Assembly: GCA_011525625.1 (NCBI GenBank)
Contig: WYAX01000009.1
Span: 62,001-126,000 of the forward strand
Length of the DNA: 64,000 nucleotides
Reading direction: 5' to 3'
Origin: Nitrospira defluvii
GTDB lineage: Bacteria; Nitrospirota; Nitrospiria; Nitrospirales; Nitrospiraceae
The position numbers and the translations under genes were made by a program. Positions 22,491 to 62,862 of this stretch are shown here, in pieces. A model generated the notes under the pieces. The model was not told the origin of the DNA and ran no database searches. It saw only the letters and a program-made list of their open reading frames with translations. Every line of letters starts with the position of its first letter. The first letter of the stretch is position 1.

Positions 22491-22793
22491 ATGAAAATTC
22501 CATTTCTAGGCGAGAAAACCCAGATCATTACTGAGGAGCGCAAAGCCGACGCCACACTGCGACTCAATCGCATCGAGGGGCAAATCAAGGGTATCAAAAA
22601 AATGGTCGCCGAAGGACGTCCGTGTGTCGAAATCCTCACACAATTGGCCTCAACCCAGGAGGCGCTTCGGGGGCTCACCAAGTTGATGATGCGCAACTAT
22701 CTGGAGAACTGTGCGACGGAGGCGATCCGCTCTAAGAGCGGCGACGAAATCTACGATGAGCTCATGAATGTGATTTTTAAGTTCGCCAAGTAG
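22491..22793 (+). CDS. CsoR/RcnR-family metal- or sulfur-sensing repressor
   Basis: 100 aa, all-helical DUF156 family. RLNRIEGQIKGIKKMVAEGR is the DNA-binding and oligomer helix. The sensing Cys are C45 (RPCVEIL) and C74 (NYLENCATEAI). In copper-sensing CsoR a His lies four residues before the second Cys; here that residue is Tyr70. A Cys-only site is more like the persulfide sensor CstR, or a modified copper site, so the inducer is uncertain. The ribosome site GGAGGG precedes the ATG. It is the first gene of an operon with a P1B-ATPase, which favours metal sensing. Confidence 0.9.
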   Translation: MKIPFLGEKTQIITEERKADATLRLNRIEGQIKGIKKMVAEGRPCVEILTQLASTQEALRGLTKLMMRNYLENCATEAIRSKSGDEIYDELMNVIFKFAK

Positions 22794-22859: not shown

Positions 22860-23054
22860 ATGGTCGCCAAGATCGCCAAGCACCTGTTTGACTGTCCGCT
22901 CTACGATGAAACCGGGCTCTGTGGTTTCACTCCGTTACTTCTAGTGACGCTCGGAGCCATAGGACTGGGCTGGGTAACCGGGTACTTCGATGTCATATTG
23001 TTTCCAGCTCTGGCCGTGTTATTTACCCTGACCCTGTACAGGATTTTAAAGTGA
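22860..23054 (+). CDS. Small membrane protein with N-terminal Cys pair
   Basis: 64 aa with GAGGAG before the ATG. The N terminus has DCPLYDETGLCGF (two Cys nine residues apart) just ahead of two closely spaced membrane helices. Size and layout are like the small mercury transport proteins (MerF/MerE) but the Cys are outside the helices rather than as an in-membrane pair, so I do not assign it to them. The CP-x-n-LCGF motif also recalls the microproteins at 26238 and 26925. It lies in the csoR-like operon. Confidence 0.7.
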   Translation: MVAKIAKHLFDCPLYDETGLCGFTPLLLVTLGAIGLGWVTGYFDVILFPALAVLFTLTLYRILK

Positions 23055-23118: not shown

Positions 23119-23805
23119 ATGATCGTCGAGGAATTTCTCAAGACCTATGCCGAGGTGCTCCTTCATGGCTCTTGGTTGGTCGTCGGGATTGCCCTTGTGG
23201 CCGGCCTGCTCAGTAGCGCCATTTGTCCCTTCACGCTGCCCGTTGGCCTCGGCATCGTCGGCGTGGTCGGCACGGCGGAAAGTCGAATCTGTGGCACCGG
23301 TTTCCCGATTGCCATGGCCTTTTTTGCCGGCCTCGTCCTCAGTCTGACCGCGCTCGGCGCACTTGCGGGAGTCTTGGGCTTTGTCGCCACGCAAGCCATT
23401 GGCCAGTGGTGGATGCTGATCATGGCGGCGCTGGCGTTCGTCGCCGCGTTGGCGGTCCTTGCAGGGCCGTCGGTCAGGCTGCACGATGTGACGGTCCTGC
23501 GGCGGCCTGGGCTTCTTGGTGCCTTCGTCTATGGGCTTGTTTTCAGTCTTGGCACACCGGCGGTCTCCCTGCTCCTCGTGCTCACCGTCGCCGCGGCCGA
23601 ACACCAGCCGGCCTATGGCGCTCTGTTGGCGCTGGGATATGGCGTAGGCCGGGGCCTACCCTTCCTACTGCTTGGGCTGTTTTCGGGTGTGGCGATGCGG
23701 CTGCGCTGTCAGCCGTCGTGGTCCCGCGCGGTTCAAGTCACCACCGGCAGCCTGCTGCTGGTGATCACGGGCTATTACCTCTGGATCTTTCTGCGACTCA
23801 GCTAA
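23119..23805 (+). CDS. CcdA/DsbD-like membrane protein
   Basis: 228 aa, about six membrane helices. A Cys-Pro in helix 1 (SSAICPFTLPVGLGIVG) and the internally repeated plan (a second related segment near FSLGTPAVSLLLVLTV) match the CcdA/DsbD transmembrane family, which passes reducing equivalents from cytoplasmic thioredoxin to periplasmic proteins. The second repeat has Thr-Pro where the redox Cys would be, so the standard two-Cys mechanism may not apply. The gene is followed directly by the P1B-ATPase, so a role in reducing or delivering metal to that pump is plausible but inferred. Confidence 0.82.
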   Translation: MIVEEFLKTYAEVLLHGSWLVVGIALVAGLLSSAICPFTLPVGLGIVGVVGTAESRICGTGFPIAMAFFAGLVLSLTALGALAGVLGFVATQAIGQWWMLIMAALAFVAALAVLAGPSVRLHDVTVLRRPGLLGAFVYGLVFSLGTPAVSLLLVLTVAAAEHQPAYGALLALGYGVGRGLPFLLLGLFSGVAMRLRCQPSWSRAVQVTTGSLLLVITGYYLWIFLRLS

Positions 23806-23817
23806 ATGGAGGCTCAC

Positions 23818-26223
23818 ATGGCAAACAATACGTTCGAACCCATCCAGATGAAGGTCTCAGGGATGATGTGTTCCTTCTGCACGATGAGCATCGAGCGCGC
23901 GCTGAAGCGCTATCCCGGCGTCAAGAGCGTACTCGTCAATCTGGTCCACGGGATTGTCTTGGTAGAAGCCGATACCACACACATTACCCGAGCGGAATTG
24001 GCTACCGCGGTCGAAAAGCTTGGGTACAACGTCTCCTCCACCGAGGTGCAGCAGTACGCGACAGATGAGGCGATCTTCTCGGTGATTAAGCAGCGGGGAC
24101 GGATCGGCATGGCTCTCGCCCTGCTCGATCTGATCGTGGACCCCTTCAATCTCTTCAGCTTGCCGGCGTACCCGCGAGCTCTGTTCAGCTTCGCGGTGGC
24201 CGCGGTGATGCTGTTGTGGGTCGGCTATCCCATCCTGCGCAAGACGCTGCTGGCCATCGGCCAACGCGTGATCAACGCGAACGTGCTCCTCTCCGCCGCG
24301 GCTTGGGGCTCGTTCATCGTGGGCAGCTTGTCGCTCGTCGATCCGCGCTGGCCGAACTTTCTGCCGGTGGCGGGATGGTTAATGGCGCTGCATCTGTTCT
24401 TTGGCTACTTCAAGCTCGATGTGCGCAAGAAGGCCTCCGAAGCTGTCCGGAAGCTGCTGTCGTTGCAACCACCGAAAGCCCGGGTCCGTCGAGGCGAGCA
24501 GCTCATCGAAGCGCTGACCAGTGACGTGACGGCCGGCGAGATCGTGGAGGTCCGGCCAGGGGAACATATTCCGCTCGATGGCGAGGTCATCGAAGGGATG
24601 GCCAGTGTCGATGAATCCAGCTTCACCGGGGAATCGATCCCCTCCGCCAAGGAGATCGGGACGAAGGTCATCGGCGGGACGCTGAATTTGGATGGGCGGC
24701 TCATCGTGCGGGTGACCAAAGTCGGCAGCGAGACCTTCCTGAGCCAAATCGTCCGGCTGATGACCCAAATCGCCGAGCGTAAGCCACCGATCGAACTGTT
24801 AGCCGATCGGCTCATGAACTACTACGGGCCAGTCGTCTTTCTCATCGCTGGCCTGGCCTTTGCGGTGTGGCTGCTCGTGACCGGCGATGCCACCAAGGCG
24901 ACCCTGGTCCTGCTCACCACGGTTATTATGGGCTATCCCTGTGCCTTGGGGATCACGACGCCCATGCTGGCCGCGATTGCCGGCGGCAAGGGCATTGCGA
25001 TCGGGCTGTTGGTCAAGGCAAGCGAGGTCTTCCACGGACTGTCGACCGTGAATACGGTGGTCTTCGACAAGACGGGGACGCTCACCTACGGTCGGCCAAC
25101 GGTGACGGATCTGGTACCGATGGGCACCGACCGTGTGGAATTGTTGAAGGTGGCGGGGGCGGTGGAGGCATCCTCCGAACATCCCCTGGGTCAGGCTATC
25201 CGCTTCTTTTCGGAGCGGGAAGAGGTCCATACCGCTGCGGTCGAGCAGTTCCGGGCGTGGCCAGGCAAAGGCGTGTCAGGCACGGTCCAAGGCGCGGAGG
25301 TGCTCGCCGGTAAGCCCTCGTTCATTGAGGAACGCGGCGCGAAGCTGACCCAAGATGTTCGCACTCAGATTGATCGGCTCAATGGCGAAGGGAAAACGGT
25401 GGTAGTGATCGTTCGAGGAGGAACGTTGCTGGGACTCGTGGCGCTGCAAGATACGCCCCGGCCGGGCACCAAACGGCTGATCGAGAAGCTGCGCGAGAGG
25501 GGATACAGAACGGTGATGTTGACCGGGGATGCCCGCCGCGTGGCGGAAGCCATCGGCCAGACGCTCATGATTGATGAGGTCCGAGCGGAATTGCTCCCGC
25601 GAGAGAAGGTCGAGGCCATTGAAGGTCTCCAACGCGAAGGTCGGAAGGTCGCGATGGTGGGAGACGGTATTAACGATGCCCCTGCCCTGGCGCAAGCAGA
25701 TGTCGGTATCGCAATCGGGGCCGGAACGGATGTCGCGATTGAATCGGCCGGCGTCATTCTGGTCGGCGACCGACCAGATGACGTCCTGAACGCCTTGACG
25801 TTGGGCAAGGCGAGTTACCGCACGTTGACCGGCAATGTGATCGTGGCCGTCTTCTTCAACATCGTGGGGATGCTCTTCGCCGCGTTCGGGTATGTCACCC
25901 CCCTGTTTGCGGTCGTCTTTATGGTCGTGAGCATCTTTGCCATCCTCCTCAACACGCTCAAGATCCGCTGGATGAAGCTGGAGCGCGAGGCCGTGTCGGA
26001 GCACGCCCCACTGGCAGAGCGGGAATTCCTGATCCCCAACATGGTTTGCGAGGGCTGCGCCACGAAGATTCAGCAGAGCTTGCAAGCAGTCCCTGGAGTC
26101 CGCGAGGTGAAACCCAAAGTGGCTCAGAAACATGTCCAGGTCACCTATGAGCCCGCAAAGGTTCCTGTAGAACGCCTGAAGGAAGTCATTGAGCAGGCGG
26201 GGTTTACAGCGCTCGAAGCGTAA
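23818..26223 (+). CDS. P1B-type heavy-metal ATPase with YPC motif and HMA domains at both ends
   Basis: About 801 aa from ATG 23818, chosen because GGAGG lies just upstream (the ATG at 23806 overlaps that site). N-terminal HMA domain GMMCSFC (C18, C21), the eight-helix P1B core with TGES, phosphorylation site DKTGT (D417), HP motif SSEHPLGQAI and [14 protein letters not shown], then a second HMA domain at the C terminus (NMVCEGCATKIQQSL). The metal-binding motif in membrane helix 6 is Tyr373-Pro-Cys375 (GYPCALG) instead of the usual CPC, which should change selectivity or affinity. It shares an operon with a CsoR-like repressor and a CcdA-like protein. Confidence 0.93.
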   Translation: MANNTFEPIQMKVSGMMCSFCTMSIERALKRYPGVKSVLVNLVHGIVLVEADTTHITRAELATAVEKLGYNVSSTEVQQYATDEAIFSVIKQRGRIGMALALLDLIVDPFNLFSLPAYPRALFSFAVAAVMLLWVGYPILRKTLLAIGQRVINANVLLSAAAWGSFIVGSLSLVDPRWPNFLPVAGWLMALHLFFGYFKLDVRKKASEAVRKLLSLQPPKARVRRGEQLIEALTSDVTAGEIVEVRPGEHIPLDGEVIEGMASVDESSFTGESIPSAKEIGTKVIGGTLNLDGRLIVRVTKVGSETFLSQIVRLMTQIAERKPPIELLADRLMNYYGPVVFLIAGLAFAVWLLVTGDATKATLVLLTTVIMGYPCALGITTPMLAAIAGGKGIAIGLLVKASEVFHGLSTVNTVVFDKTGTLTYGRPTVTDLVPMGTDRVELLKVAGAVEASSEHPLGQAIRFFSEREEVHTAAVEQFRAWPGKGVSGTVQGAEVLAGKPSFIEERGAKLTQDVRTQIDRLNGEGKTVVVIVRGGTLLGLVALQDTPRPGTKRLIEKLRERGYRTVMLTGDARRVAEAIGQTLMIDEVRAELLPREKVEAIEGLQREGRKVAMVGDGINDAPALAQADVGIAIGAGTDVAIESAGVILVGDRPDDVLNALTLGKASYRTLTGNVIVAVFFNIVGMLFAAFGYVTPLFAVVFMVVSIFAILLNTLKIRWMKLEREAVSEHAPLAEREFLIPNMVCEGCATKIQQSLQAVPGVREVKPKVAQKHVQVTYEPAKVPVERLKEVIEQAGFTALEA

Positions 26224-26237
26224 AGGCGGTGATCGCC

Positions 26238-26324
26238 ATGTGTCCATGGGTCGGCATGCTCGGCTTCTGCCCGTATGAGGTGGCATCCCGCGTCTGGCAG
26301 TGGGTGCAAGGCCTCTTTGCGTAA
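26238..26324 (+). CDS. 28-aa Cys-Pro microprotein, copy 1
   Basis: ATG 26238 to TAA 26324. The product starts MCPWVGMLGFCPYEVAS and ends RVWQWVQGLFA. The upstream stretch from 26223 (AAGGCGGTGATC) differs by one base from the perfect complement of the 16S tail, so translation is likely. A related 29-aa frame with its own strong ribosome site lies at 26925: both have MCP, six residues, G-F-CP, and then a Ser-Arg. This copy is the last gene before a terminator in the csoR-like/P-ATPase operon. Two Cys-Pro pairs suggest a metal site; function unknown. Confidence 0.62.
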   Translation: MCPWVGMLGFCPYEVASRVWQWVQGLFA

Positions 26325-26342
26325 GCAGAAAAGGGCAACACG

Positions 26343-26379
26343 GGCGACCGGTCTACTGTGCGCCGGTCGCCATTTTATT
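26343..26379 (+). terminator. Rho-independent terminator
   Basis: Perfect 9-bp stem GGCGACCGG / CCGGTCGCC (26343-26351 and 26363-26371) with an 11-base loop, followed by ATTTTATT. It closes the operon that begins at 22421. Confidence 0.85.
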
Positions 26380-26432
26380 GCATCAGACATGAGCAAGTCC
26401 GATCCTCTCTAAGTCGGCGCGTCCTAAATCCC

Positions 26433-26464
26433 TTGACTCGGTACTATGGTACAGGGGGTATCGT
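26433..26464 (+). promoter_or_regulatory. MerR-type promoter/operator
   Basis: TTGACT (26433-26438) and TATCGT (26459-26464) are about 20 bp apart, the over-long spacing typical of MerR-controlled promoters. The spacer holds GTAC-TATG-GTAC, the same GTAC-N4-GTAC dyad as the classical mer operator. Unlike the divergent classical mer layout, merR itself lies directly downstream on the same strand, so the regulator heads its own metal-inducible unit. The expected transcript start is only about 0-12 bases before the start codon. Confidence 0.78.
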
Positions 26465-26469
26465 TCGCA

Positions 26470-26919
26470 ATGGGTGATGGCATGGCCACTGAACTGACGA
26501 TCGGACGGCTTGCAAAGCAAGTTGGCGTCAATGTTCAGACGGTCCGATATTATGAGCGGCGGAAGCTGCTCCCGCCGACCTCCCGCATGCCATCAGGCTA
26601 CCGCCTCTACGGCAATGAGGCACTTAGGCGCTTACGGTTCATTCGGAACGCGCAGACGTTGGGTTTCACGCTGCAGGAGATTGCCGAACTGCTGAATCTG
26701 CGAGTCAGCTCGACCGCTCGTTGTTGGGACGTGCAACGGAAGGCGCAGGCCAAGCTGGTGCAGGTCGAGGCCAAGACCCGAGACTTGCGGGCGCTTGCCC
26801 GCTCGCTCCGAGTATTGGTCCGGAATTGTCAGGCTGGTCAGCCCACCGACCGCTGTCCGATCCTAACGAGTTTGGAAAAGGAGAGAGGAAGGCCGGTTGA
26901 GGCCAACACGAGGAGGTGA
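26470..26919 (+). CDS. merR: MerR-family regulator, mercury-type Cys triad
   Basis: About 149 aa from ATG 26470 (ATG 26482 is possible; the more upstream ATG at 26446 lies inside the operator and is unlikely). Winged-helix head LTIGRLAKQVGVNVQTVRYY, ERRKLLPP and MPSGYRLYG. Three Cys follow: one after STAR, the second exactly 35 residues later (RNC) and the third nine residues after that (DRC). Those spacings equal Cys82-117-126 of the Tn501 MerR that bind Hg(II). With a mer-type operator ahead and a MerB-MerT gene behind, mercury or organomercury sensing is well supported. Confidence 0.92.
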   Translation: MGDGMATELTIGRLAKQVGVNVQTVRYYERRKLLPPTSRMPSGYRLYGNEALRRLRFIRNAQTLGFTLQEIAELLNLRVSSTARCWDVQRKAQAKLVQVEAKTRDLRALARSLRVLVRNCQAGQPTDRCPILTSLEKERGRPVEANTRR

Positions 26920-26924
26920 CGACC

Positions 26925-27014
26925 ATGTGTCCATTTGCGGAATGGCTGGGCTTCTGTCCATTTGCAGCGCCGAGCCGCATGGGTCGGCCGACGGAGACCA
27001 GATGGGTGCCATGA
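26925..27014 (+). CDS. 29-aa Cys-Pro microprotein, copy 2
   Basis: ATG 26925 to TGA 27014, preceded by AGGAGGTGAC, an excellent ribosome site five bases upstream. The product begins MCPFAEWLGFCPFAAPSR and ends in GRPTETRWVP. It starts six bases after the merR stop. The N-terminal 18 residues match the copy at 26238 (MCP-x5/6-LGFCP-x4-SR) while the tails differ. Two such frames, each with a strong ribosome site and each next to a metal operon, make chance unlikely. Possible roles are a metal-binding peptide or a regulatory leader. Confidence 0.68.
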   Translation: MCPFAEWLGFCPFAAPSRMGRPTETRWVP

Positions 27015-27079
27015 GATGGGTGCCATGAAATGGGCAACTCACGGGTAACGCATCTGCTGGATCTCCGGGCTTCGATGCG

Positions 27080-27131: not shown

Positions 27132-28319
27132 ATGGCAGACACATGCTGTGAAGGCGCTAGGGGCGTCGACAATATCTCAGGCTGGGCCGGTGAGACCGGC
27201 ACAATTCAACCGGATACGGGGGAAAGGCCGGTTGTTCCAACAGCGACCGAAACCGCTAAAGGGCTCGTGGCTGAAGCCATGTCCATGCTCGGATGGGATC
27301 ACACCAAGTTGAACCACACTGAAGATGCCGTTCGGCGTTACATCCTCACGCAGTACCCATTGCAAGGAGGAGCGCCAAGTTGCCGAGAGATCGAAGAGGT
27401 ACTCGGGCTGGCCGGCACGGAGGTCCAGACCATTCTCAGGCGACTCCATGAGCTAGACATCCTCTATCTTGAGCCTGGGTGCCTTGAGATCCGGCTCGCC
27501 TATCCATTCTCTTCTGTCCCAACGCGACATGTCGTGAAGTTTGAGGATTGGGCGGAAGCGAAACCTGTCTACGCTCAGTGCGCGGTCGATGCGTTAGGAA
27601 TTCCCTTCATGTTTAGTCACGACCTCTCCGTTGCTTCCTCATGTGCGCACTGCTCCAAGCCGGTCACACTTGAGGTGCGCAACCGGATGATTGTGACCCA
27701 CAACCCGGCGGAAACCGTCGTGTGGGCGGGGACGACTCGTTCAGGGCCCGCGGCGACATCCGTCTGTCCCACCATCAATTTCTTTTGTTCTTCGGATCAT
27801 GTCGTTGCATGGTTGCAAGGCCAAGCCGACACAAGGGGGGCGATTATCAGCCTCGCTGAGGCGTTCTACATCGGCAAGGAGCTATTTGAGCCTCTGCGCA
27901 TTGCAGAATCGGATTCGACATCTCACTCGACGAGGAATGCGCAGACAGTTCACGCTGAAAGAGCGGCGTTGACGGCCACTTCAACGGGATCTCTGGTGGC
28001 GGCGTTTTTGGCATCTGTGTGTTGCATCGGCCCACTTGTGTTCGCTGCTCTGGGCGTAGGGATCGGAGGGACCGGATTGCTGGCCGGCGCGGCGGGATTT
28101 CTCAAGGGACTGCTGCCCTACCGACCGTGGTTCATCGGCCTGACCGTACTGTTGCTTGGAGTCAGCTTCTACCTGGCGTGCCGGAAACCAACGAGCGCAT
28201 GTGCTCCCGGTTCGATCTGTGCTCTCCGTGAGACCACGCGAGCGTCTCGGGTGCTCCTGTGGGTCGTGACAGCCATTGCCCTCGGGTTGGTTTTGGCGCC
28301 CTATTGGTTGGGAGTCTAA
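27132..28319 (+). CDS. MerB-MerT fusion: organomercurial lyase joined to mercury transporter
   Basis: 395 aa. AAGGAGAG precedes the ATG. Residues about 40-260 are alkylmercury lyase: C150 and D153 in AQCAVDALGIPFMF and C212 in TSVCPTINFF match MerB Cys96, Asp99 and Cys159 in order and almost in spacing. Residues about 283-395 are MerT: CC at 297-298 in the first helix (ASVCCIGPLVFAALG), PYRPWFIGLTVLLLG, and the loop pair C357/C363 (CAPGSIC), as in MerT 24-25 and 76/82. The joined protein would cleave organomercury C-Hg bonds at the cytoplasmic face of a mercury importer. Both halves keep their key residues. Confidence 0.92.
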   Translation: MADTCCEGARGVDNISGWAGETGTIQPDTGERPVVPTATETAKGLVAEAMSMLGWDHTKLNHTEDAVRRYILTQYPLQGGAPSCREIEEVLGLAGTEVQTILRRLHELDILYLEPGCLEIRLAYPFSSVPTRHVVKFEDWAEAKPVYAQCAVDALGIPFMFSHDLSVASSCAHCSKPVTLEVRNRMIVTHNPAETVVWAGTTRSGPAATSVCPTINFFCSSDHVVAWLQGQADTRGAIISLAEAFYIGKELFEPLRIAESDSTSHSTRNAQTVHAERAALTATSTGSLVAAFLASVCCIGPLVFAALGVGIGGTGLLAGAAGFLKGLLPYRPWFIGLTVLLLGVSFYLACRKPTSACAPGSICALRETTRASRVLLWVVTAIALGLVLAPYWLGV

Positions 28320-61299: not shown

Positions 61300-62862
61300 T
61301 CATGAGTCGGGAGGAGAGGACGGGACGGACCTACGAGTGGGCAGGAGATCCCGCACCCGCTCGACCGGCACCCCGAAACTGACGGCGCCAAATCGGGTCA
61401 TGGTCGCGGAGTGGATCGCGATGAGGGTCCCCCGGCGGTCAAAGACCGGGCTTCCGCTGCCCCCGCCCGTCGTTTGCGCATCATAGAGGATGCGGTTCGG
61501 CACGACGTCGGCGATATGGCCTTGCATGGCCAACGGCCAGATTCTCCCCTCGCGCGCGATCAGCCGCACCAAGAGGCCCAGATCGTTCCGAGCCTGTTGA
61601 ATCAATCCGATGGCAACCGCGTCATCCATCCGCGCCAAGAGGCCCTCGACCCCAGTGGGGTAGCCCAGCACCATGACCGGCTCGCCGGCGGCTGGCTGAG
61701 CGGATGGCCGCATGAGGGGAATGGTCGGTATCCCGGTGGGCGGGGGAGACAGCTGACCGATCGCGAGGTCCACCTGATCGGACGCGCGGACGACGGAGAC
61801 CGTCAAGGGCGTGGTCTGGCCTGGGCAGTGAGCGAGCAATGTCACCAGCTTCGGCTGTCGGCCAGTCGCGATCATCTCGGCGCTCTGTTTATCCATCGAC
61901 CACGGTTCCATGAGGTGGCGGTTGGTGACCAATTGGCCCGAAGGCTCCACGAGGAACCCGGTCCCCATATAATCCAACAATACCGCGGGGGTCCCATCGT
62001 CGGCAGCGCCCTGCTCCAGAAATCCATAGGTCCCATAGAGCAAGCACACGGCGGGCCCATACCGCTTGATCAAGGACTCCGCGCGGGTCTGCTCCGCCTC
62101 GAGAGTCTGGAGCCGCCGGGTCAGGGCCTGTACGTCCTGTGGGGAGGCACCGGCGGAGCGTTGCTCGTCAAGCAGCGCGAGCAATCGGCGTACCTCGACT
62201 TCATGGGCCGTGAGTTGCTCCGCGACCCGCGCCCGCTCTGCCGCAGTCGCGTGCTCGAGGGTGGCTTGCCACTGCCGGGCCGATTCCAGCGTCTTCGACA
62301 GGAGGGTCTGCTGTCGCTCGTAGGCTTGCCGGGTGACGTAGGCGTAGTAGCCCAGCGTTCCGATGACCCCACACAGCCCGACGAACACCGTCACGATCAC
62401 GAATCGGGCCGTGCGGGTCGCATGCCGTCGGAGGTCATACGCCAGTTGCGCGACGAAGCTCCCAACCCGTCCCCCGCGACCCAGGTCGCTCTCCGCGGCG
62501 ATATCCCTGGCATCCTGCATGATCTCCCGCACGAGTTTACAGGCGGCATATTCCTCGGGGCGGATGCGAATGCGCAACTTGGGACCCTGCGGCCCCAATC
62601 GGATGAGATCGTTGTCGCGCAGCACGATCTCATCGATCGGCTGGTGATTGACCAGAGTGGGTGCCCCTGCAGCCAGATTCCGGACATGGAGTTCACAGTG
62701 TTCCTCAAAGATTTGTGCGTGCAGCGGCGCCACCGGCCCTTGATCATCGGAGGGAAACGGGACGTCGTTCTTCGCATCTTCCCCCAGCGTGAGCCAGGTC
62801 CGATCGAAATATTGGGTCTCGCCGCGATGACAGCCGGAGAGGTGCACCAACGAAAATTTCAT
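61300..62862 (-). CDS. FHA domain, membrane-anchored trypsin-like serine protease
   Basis: 520 aa from ATG 62862. Residues about 20-95 are a forkhead-associated domain (LTLGEDAKNDVPFPSDDQGP, VNHQPIDEIVLRDNDLIRLG). One membrane helix lies at about 153-175, then a coiled coil at about 178-265. The protease domain has H316 in LVTNRHLMEPW, D365 in SDQVDLAIG, and S469 in TTGGGSGSPVFD, so the triad is complete, HtrA-like in style but without a PDZ domain. The FHA part would be cytoplasmic and the protease periplasmic, a way of linking phospho-signals inside to proteolysis outside. Strand is opposite to the metal genes. Confidence 0.9.
   Translation of the reverse strand: MKFSLVHLSGCHRGETQYFDRTWLTLGEDAKNDVPFPSDDQGPVAPLHAQIFEEHCELHVRNLAAGAPTLVNHQPIDEIVLRDNDLIRLGPQGPKLRIRIRPEEYAACKLVREIMQDARDIAAESDLGRGGRVGSFVAQLAYDLRRHATRTARFVIVTVFVGLCGVIGTLGYYAYVTRQAYERQQTLLSKTLESARQWQATLEHATAAERARVAEQLTAHEVEVRRLLALLDEQRSAGASPQDVQALTRRLQTLEAEQTRAESLIKRYGPAVCLLYGTYGFLEQGAADDGTPAVLLDYMGTGFLVEPSGQLVTNRHLMEPWSMDKQSAEMIATGRQPKLVTLLAHCPGQTTPLTVSVVRASDQVDLAIGQLSPPPTGIPTIPLMRPSAQPAAGEPVMVLGYPTGVEGLLARMDDAVAIGLIQQARNDLGLLVRLIAREGRIWPLAMQGHIADVVPNRILYDAQTTGGGSGSPVFDRRGTLIAIHSATMTRFGAVSFGVPVERVRDLLPTRRSVPSSPPDS

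Follow-up and report, generated by a model that had tools for sequence, protein, structure and literature searches.

Two short reading frames in a window of 64,000 nucleotides (the whole stretch of Nitrospira defluvii DNA that was analysed, positions 62,001 to 126,000 of contig WYAX01000009.1) belong to a real, previously unlisted microprotein family of Nitrospirota. Its core form has 28 aa and consists of MCP-x5-GFCP followed by an amphipathic, tryptophan-rich helix segment. The coding character of the family is well supported, as is its regulation, the main form usually being switched on by its own mercury-type regulator. An earlier note had drawn attention to both frames, and their coordinates, their common MCP-x5-GFCP pattern and their placement, one at the end of a P-ATPase operon and the other after merR, are as it described. 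The two copies are of different subtypes: the frame at 26238 is of the well-conserved type (type 1), and that at 26925 is of a less constrained type linked to MerT (type 2). A literature search found no paper on this peptide, and at E 0.01 neither window peptide matched a Pfam or NCBIfam family, MerF and MerT included. The window features are as follows.

22491..22793, + strand: CsoR-type repressor (PF02583), first gene of the operon in which the type-1 gene comes last
22860..23054, + strand: MerF relative of 64 aa, with CPLYDETGLCGF (PF11431 40.6 bits, NF033565 53.6 bits)
23119..23805, + strand: DsbD/CcdA-like membrane protein (PF02683)
23806..26223, + strand: P1B-type ATPase with N- and C-terminal HMA domains (PF00122, PF00702, PF00403; TIGR01525 over its cut-off)
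26222..26233, + strand: type-1 ribosome site AAAGGCGGTGAT, directly 3' of the P-ATPase stop codon (from sequence)
26238..26324, + strand: type-1 microprotein gene, 28 aa, MCPWVGMLGFCPYEVASRVWQWVQGLFA (23 aligned relatives, dN/dS 0.18, identity drop at the frame borders)
26342..26378, + strand: hairpin GGCGACCGG...CCGGTCGCC, then ATTTTATT (fold -23.8 kcal/mol)
26433..26464, + strand: MerR-class promoter/operator TTGACT-CGGTACTATGGTACAGGGGG-TATCGT with a 20-bp spacer, before merR
26482..26919, + strand: merR with Hg-type spacing of three cysteines (35 + 9) (Pfam MerR families; alignment)
26910..26919, + strand: type-2 ribosome site GAGGAGGTGA, overlapping the merR stop codon (from sequence)
26925..27014, + strand: type-2 microprotein gene, 29 aa, MCPFAEWLGFCPFAAPSRMGRPTETRWVP, between merR and merB-merT
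27132..28319, + strand: fused MerB-MerT protein of 395 aa (PF03243 MerB and PF02411 MerT in one frame)

The first operon has the order csoR - merF - dsbD-like - P1B-ATPase - type-1 gene, and the type-1 start codon lies 14 bases past the stop codon of the ATPase. Directly 3' of the type-1 gene, the hairpin at 26342..26378 is a probable terminator; it was absent from the output of a simple terminator scan. The type-2 gene starts 5 nt past the merR stop codon, with the fused MerB-MerT gene downstream. Strong ribosome sites had been claimed for both frames. The site before 26925 is GAGGAGGTGA; that of the 26238 gene, AAAGGCGGTGAT, is a weakened form of AAAGGAGGTGAT, the ribosome site of its relatives. 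For merR, 26482 is the likelier start because the longest-ORF start, 26446, falls inside the operator. The best NCBIfam MerB-type model for the MerB (organomercury lyase) part of the fused protein is SaoL, with a score below its cut-off.

As a nucleotide pattern, MCP...GFCP matched 19 of 396 genomes of the phylum, and on inspection 16 of the matches were real and three were due to chance; the reversed pattern gave no match in the same genomes. Run one base short (N15 instead of N16) over 84,980 species genomes, the pattern returned 26 matches, which is chance level only. A profile search of the 175 genomes of the window's own family recovered about 30 strong copies in 23 genomes from seven genera. 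When Nitrospirota was searched again using a broader profile, no genome from outside this family was gained, and samples of three other phyla, 542 genomes in all, contained no convincing relative (299 from the phylum of G462, Cellvibrionales; 95 from that of G463, Rokuibacteriota; 148 from that of G465, Deltaproteobacteria). Four weak matches, three of them among the sampled Pseudomonadota and one in G1008, were rejected, being partial matches within longer frames or missing the N-terminal half. Carriage by plasmids was rejected, as 72,556 plasmid records held no convincing match, and so was carriage by phages or viruses: the viral contigs yielded no confirmed relative, and five pattern matches had neither a ribosome site nor a helix.

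Evidence for coding comes from an alignment of 23 copies, 20 of type 1 and three of a type 3 described below. Their dN/dS is 0.18, and minority bases or substitutions at codon positions 1, 2 and 3 number 79, 49 and 187. This bias was equalled in 0 of 20,000 column shuffles, a result that is not a strict probability because the copies are related by descent. The length of 28 is kept in 21 of the 23 copies, with three different stop codons, and the other two forward frames contain stops in 17 and 19 of them. Pairwise identity is about 0.75 within the frame and 0.27-0.45 outside it, the ribosome site excepted. C2, W4, G9, F10, C11, P12 and W22 are invariant in all 23 copies. As for the amphipathic helix, the hydrophobic moment exceeded that of at least 95% of shuffles in four of seven peptides tested. 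Judged from sequence comparison, there is little doubt that type 1 encodes a protein, and selection at the codon level argues for translation of the microprotein. It is scarcely credible that these are chance frames and not genes. In favour of chance, their length is below the usual gene-calling limit and neither has a Pfam or NCBIfam match; however, the codon-position bias, the low dN/dS, the conserved ribosome site and promoter, and the complete lack of reversed-pattern matches all speak against chance, which for type 1 is already contradicted by the codon-level evidence. The usual gene-calling limit is 90 bases, and the 87-base gene lies just under it. Because searches for metal regulons go through annotated genes, the chief inducible product of a MerR regulon could escape notice in an entire bacterial family.

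The earlier note had supposed that such frames form an overlooked short-peptide family in metal operons, and had asked for further copies near merR, csoR or P1B genes, taking their absence as the outcome that would speak against it. Copies at further metal loci support the proposal: of 20 type-1 genes, 18 adjoin a MerR of one subfamily, mostly in divergent orientation, and other copies lie in merB/merT and CusCBA operons. The MerR partners of type 1 are largely one clade, and a carboxymuconolactone-decarboxylase-like gene often comes next after the MerR-peptide pair. In 17 of the 20 copies, a promoter of the form TTGAC(C/T)-N20-TAnnnT with a GTAC-N4-GTAC-like dyad lies 56-65 bases upstream of the start, and 13 type-1 copies have a second promoter of the same build, back to back with the first and directed toward merR. 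An operator scan of ten whole genomes found 14 sites, each before a peptide or a merR as judged by comparison with the known positions of these genes; reversed controls gave 0 sites. In described MerR signals the spacer measures 19 or 20 bp and the palindrome is GTAC-(4)-GTAC (PMC1526738). This build of Hg(II)-responsive MerR promoters is shared by the 17 type-1 promoters and by the merR promoter at 26433-26464, the only MerR-class promoter in the window on either strand. The type-1 genes of G000 and G094 have no MerR-class promoter and stand at the end of a CsoR operon.

The cysteines of Tn501 MerR are Cys82, Cys117 and Cys126 (PMC5027573), and the window MerR and most of its relatives have the same spacing of 35 and 9. 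Against TIGR02051 the window MerR scores 128.1 bits, under the curated cut-off of 150.85, and is therefore called Hg-type here, not a MerR equivalog. Some type-1-associated MerRs (for example L031, L036, L038 and L095) have shifted or missing cysteines, and the MerR of G393 scores close to zinc-regulator models, with one MerR slightly better against a zinc model. Because of the below-cut-off MerR scores, the altered cysteines and the zinc-model score, zinc, cadmium or lead are possible in some lineages.

The pairing of peptide and regulator bears on a further reading, in which the peptide, co-induced with merR, would switch the regulon off by binding MerR or removing its metal, as has been proposed for MerD. 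The adjacency of 18 of 20 type-1 copies to the same MerR subfamily, the largely single clade of these partners and the restriction of operator targets to the peptide and merR in ten genomes would all fit such feedback. However, G400 and G398 have the peptide with no such MerR close by, the peptide is also found under CsoR or another MerR, and its fusion partner is MerT, not MerR; we regard feedback as distinctly unlikely.

Type 2 stands between merR and merB-merT in G000, G319, G412 and G169; two of these, G319 and G412, also have merA farther downstream. The type-2 relatives are those of G319, G412, G169, G277 and G226, and the 26925 peptide has profile matches at E 1.9e-9 and 7.5e-12, both profiles containing that peptide. 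The C-terminus of type 2 is variable and poorly conserved, and one copy starts with CTG. G226 has an in-frame fusion of the type-2 peptide to MerT, in which only the part from about residue 27 onward aligns with plasmid MerT; an AlphaFold model of this fusion (pLDDT 50) was too poor to use. A MerT at L132:1094-1492 on the minus strand (G167) starts with MCPYEE, as type 2 does, without GFCP.

Two type-2 copies, L103 (G412) and L105 (G277), have TGA at codon 7 in place of the tryptophan codon of W7, and the frame that follows is still similar. Selenocysteine at this TGA was rejected: none of six genomes had a tRNA-Sec match above the Rfam cut-off, and the copies are therefore probably broken, perhaps independently. 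The TGA codons, the poorly conserved C-terminus and the position between merR and merB-merT could also suggest a leader peptide, with translation of the frame controlling the downstream genes. This is very unlikely, given that a consistent gene is usually missing downstream of type 1, that type 1 is conserved as a protein and that in the window a terminator-like hairpin follows it.

Type 3, with the sequence MC[HQ]WVEILGFCPYETASK, lies downstream of another MerR and heads an operon with an exported-looking protein of 117-119 aa and then TolC- and CusB-like genes, with a CusA-like gene as well in G400. A second conserved microprotein of 38 aa, MQYLLSLVPSTVIATLIRAWPAMGNIVSNVCPSCPFCP, is encoded at L097:4849-4965 (+) and at the same position in L101 and L102. 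Its ribosome site is AAAGGAGGTGAAA, and the peptide contains a hydrophobic helix and a CPSCPFCP tail that is invariant. In CusCBA operons its frame comes after the second MerR, whose gene it overlaps at the end, and before the type-3 peptide. That CPSCPFCP is the end of the second MerR was considered and rejected, as the tail belongs to a separate frame. A frameshifted copy of this microprotein is found in L134 (G319), and the plasmid records gave no match to it.

For type 1, no consistent downstream partner is seen in most genomes. Two copies (G050 and G277) adjoin a merR-merT-merA cluster, and two others (G127 and G251) lie beside ArsM- and ArsS-type genes. ArsS is a radical SAM protein, and a short cysteine peptide next to metal genes, comparable in size to methanobactin precursors, might be a RiPP-like metallophore precursor that is matured by an enzyme. 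This we consider highly improbable: no maturation enzyme recurs across the neighbourhoods, conservation extends over most of the 28 residues with no division into leader and core, and arsenosugar synthesis accounts for ArsS. The part of the neighbours scanned with Pfam and NCBIfam contained no MbnB or MbnC.

MerA over the curated cut-off is present in nine of the 23 host genomes. No such MerA was found in the other 14, the window's genome included, and disposal by reduction is therefore not general. The reading that we prefer, at roughly even chances of being right, is that a metal-induced two-cysteine peptide at the membrane surface binds a soft metal, Hg(II) or another, and delivers it to exporters or enzymes. 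Metal binding is here something that we infer, as are the identity of the metal, the membrane location and the hand-over. Hg(II) or a similar soft ion would bind MerR, and the metal-loaded regulator would untwist the promoter with its 20-bp spacer so that the peptide is made. Its helix would lie on the cytoplasmic face of the inner membrane, with the C2...C11 loop folded against the amphipathic helix. C2 and C11 would then hold the soft ion, most likely Hg(II), keep it from other thiols and hand it to whichever disposal system the genome has, be it a P1B-ATPase, MerT/MerA, CusCBA or CDF exporters. MerT usually has an N-in topology, and if this holds for the fusion, the module would be placed on the cytoplasmic side. 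Because there are only two cysteines, the affinity for metal may be modest unless the peptide dimerises.

A broader and more tentative reading, which we would not back at even chances, is that of a minimal mercury-response system. Here a Hg-type MerR would have, besides its own operon, a 28-residue two-cysteine peptide as its sole target, and the peptide alone would buffer or shuttle the metal in bacteria that mostly have no mercuric reductase. The peptide would be a portable metal-handling module, linked to ATPases, MerB/MerT and RND pumps either through gene order or through fusion, and the pump operons would also have the second, unrelated 38-aa microprotein (CPSCPFCP end). Were the peptide to bind mercury, few genetically encoded metal handlers would be smaller, and the handling of mercury without MerA in these genomes would become easier to understand. 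Promoter, regulator and peptide together occupy well under a kilobase, which makes for a clean test case.

The same neighbours could instead be targets of regulation, with the amphipathic helix binding the P1B-ATPase, MerT or an RND pump to alter its activity or turnover and the cysteines sensing metal, not carrying it. The peptide adjoins the P1B-ATPase in G000 and G094, MerT in six genomes and CusCBA in three, and the invariant W4, F10 and W22 exceed what metal ligation needs. There is also precedent, as MgtS (31 aa), MntS (42 aa) and AcrZ (49 aa) act on membrane transporters (PMC10710835). However, a transporter is absent from the transcript of most type-1 copies, the neighbouring transporters vary by genome, and the segment is an amphipathic and not a transmembrane helix, which leaves a transporter modulator unlikely. 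No rival, whether modulator, feedback partner, leader or RiPP precursor, fits the MerR-driven and conserved type 1 as well as metal carriage does.

Several known systems resemble the microprotein in part. It forms the N-terminus of the G226 MerT, the G167 MerT begins with MCPYEE, and the MerF relative at 22860 has its C-x8-C spacing and glycine; unlike MerF and MerT, the microprotein has no transmembrane helix or CC motif and matches neither Pfam family. NmerA (the N-terminal HMA domain of MerA) and the CopZ and MerP carriers are likewise small cysteine-pair modules, free or fused, that are thought to carry soft metal between transporter and enzyme. HMA domains, however, have about 65-70 aa and GMxCxxC, whereas the microprotein has 28 aa and CPx5GFCP, with no detectable homology. 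Metallothioneins are also small, cysteine-containing and metal-induced, but the microprotein has just two cysteines, conserved aromatics and a helix. MntS, MgtS and AcrZ are similar in size, in their link to metal regulation and in their closeness to transporters, and have no sequence relation to it. To our knowledge, these three also lack its conserved cysteine pair and its MerR control. Classical MerR regulons, with their transporter, regulator and detoxification genes, share the promoter architecture and the divergent merR layout, whereas the divergent target here is a 28-codon gene.

The 64-aa protein at 22860 lies inside the CsoR-DsbD-P1B ATPase operon, has relatives in L028 and L099, and scores over both MerF cut-offs (53.6 against 50 for NF033565 and 40.6 against 24.3 for PF11431). 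The vicinal CC pair of the first helix (LCCF) is absent, being LCGF or MCGF in the window, L028 and L099, and for this reason the protein is called a MerF relative. A start similar to that of the microproteins had been suggested for it; the similar motif, CPLYDETGLCGF, is present at residues 12-23 and not at the very start. The window protein and its two relatives share an extra upstream cysteine that gives C-x8-C, the microprotein spacing. This likeness, read from sequence, could reflect common descent or convergence.

L100 (G117:C19:113299-113373) is a type-1 remnant that lacks the N-terminus and is joined to the antisense of the CMD gene; it apparently arose when a deletion took out merR. 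Positions 27000-27028 of the window, where the type-2 frame ends, hold a tandem duplication, GATGGGTGCCATGA, and the C-terminus of the window type-2 peptide may therefore have been altered recently. L106 (G301) and L108 (G220) are divergent relatives with GYCPW in place of GFCPY (MCPLEQALGYCPWGAVTQLLSWLGWQ; CPSEEFLGYCPWTAFSQFVSLFIG), hinting at a further subfamily.
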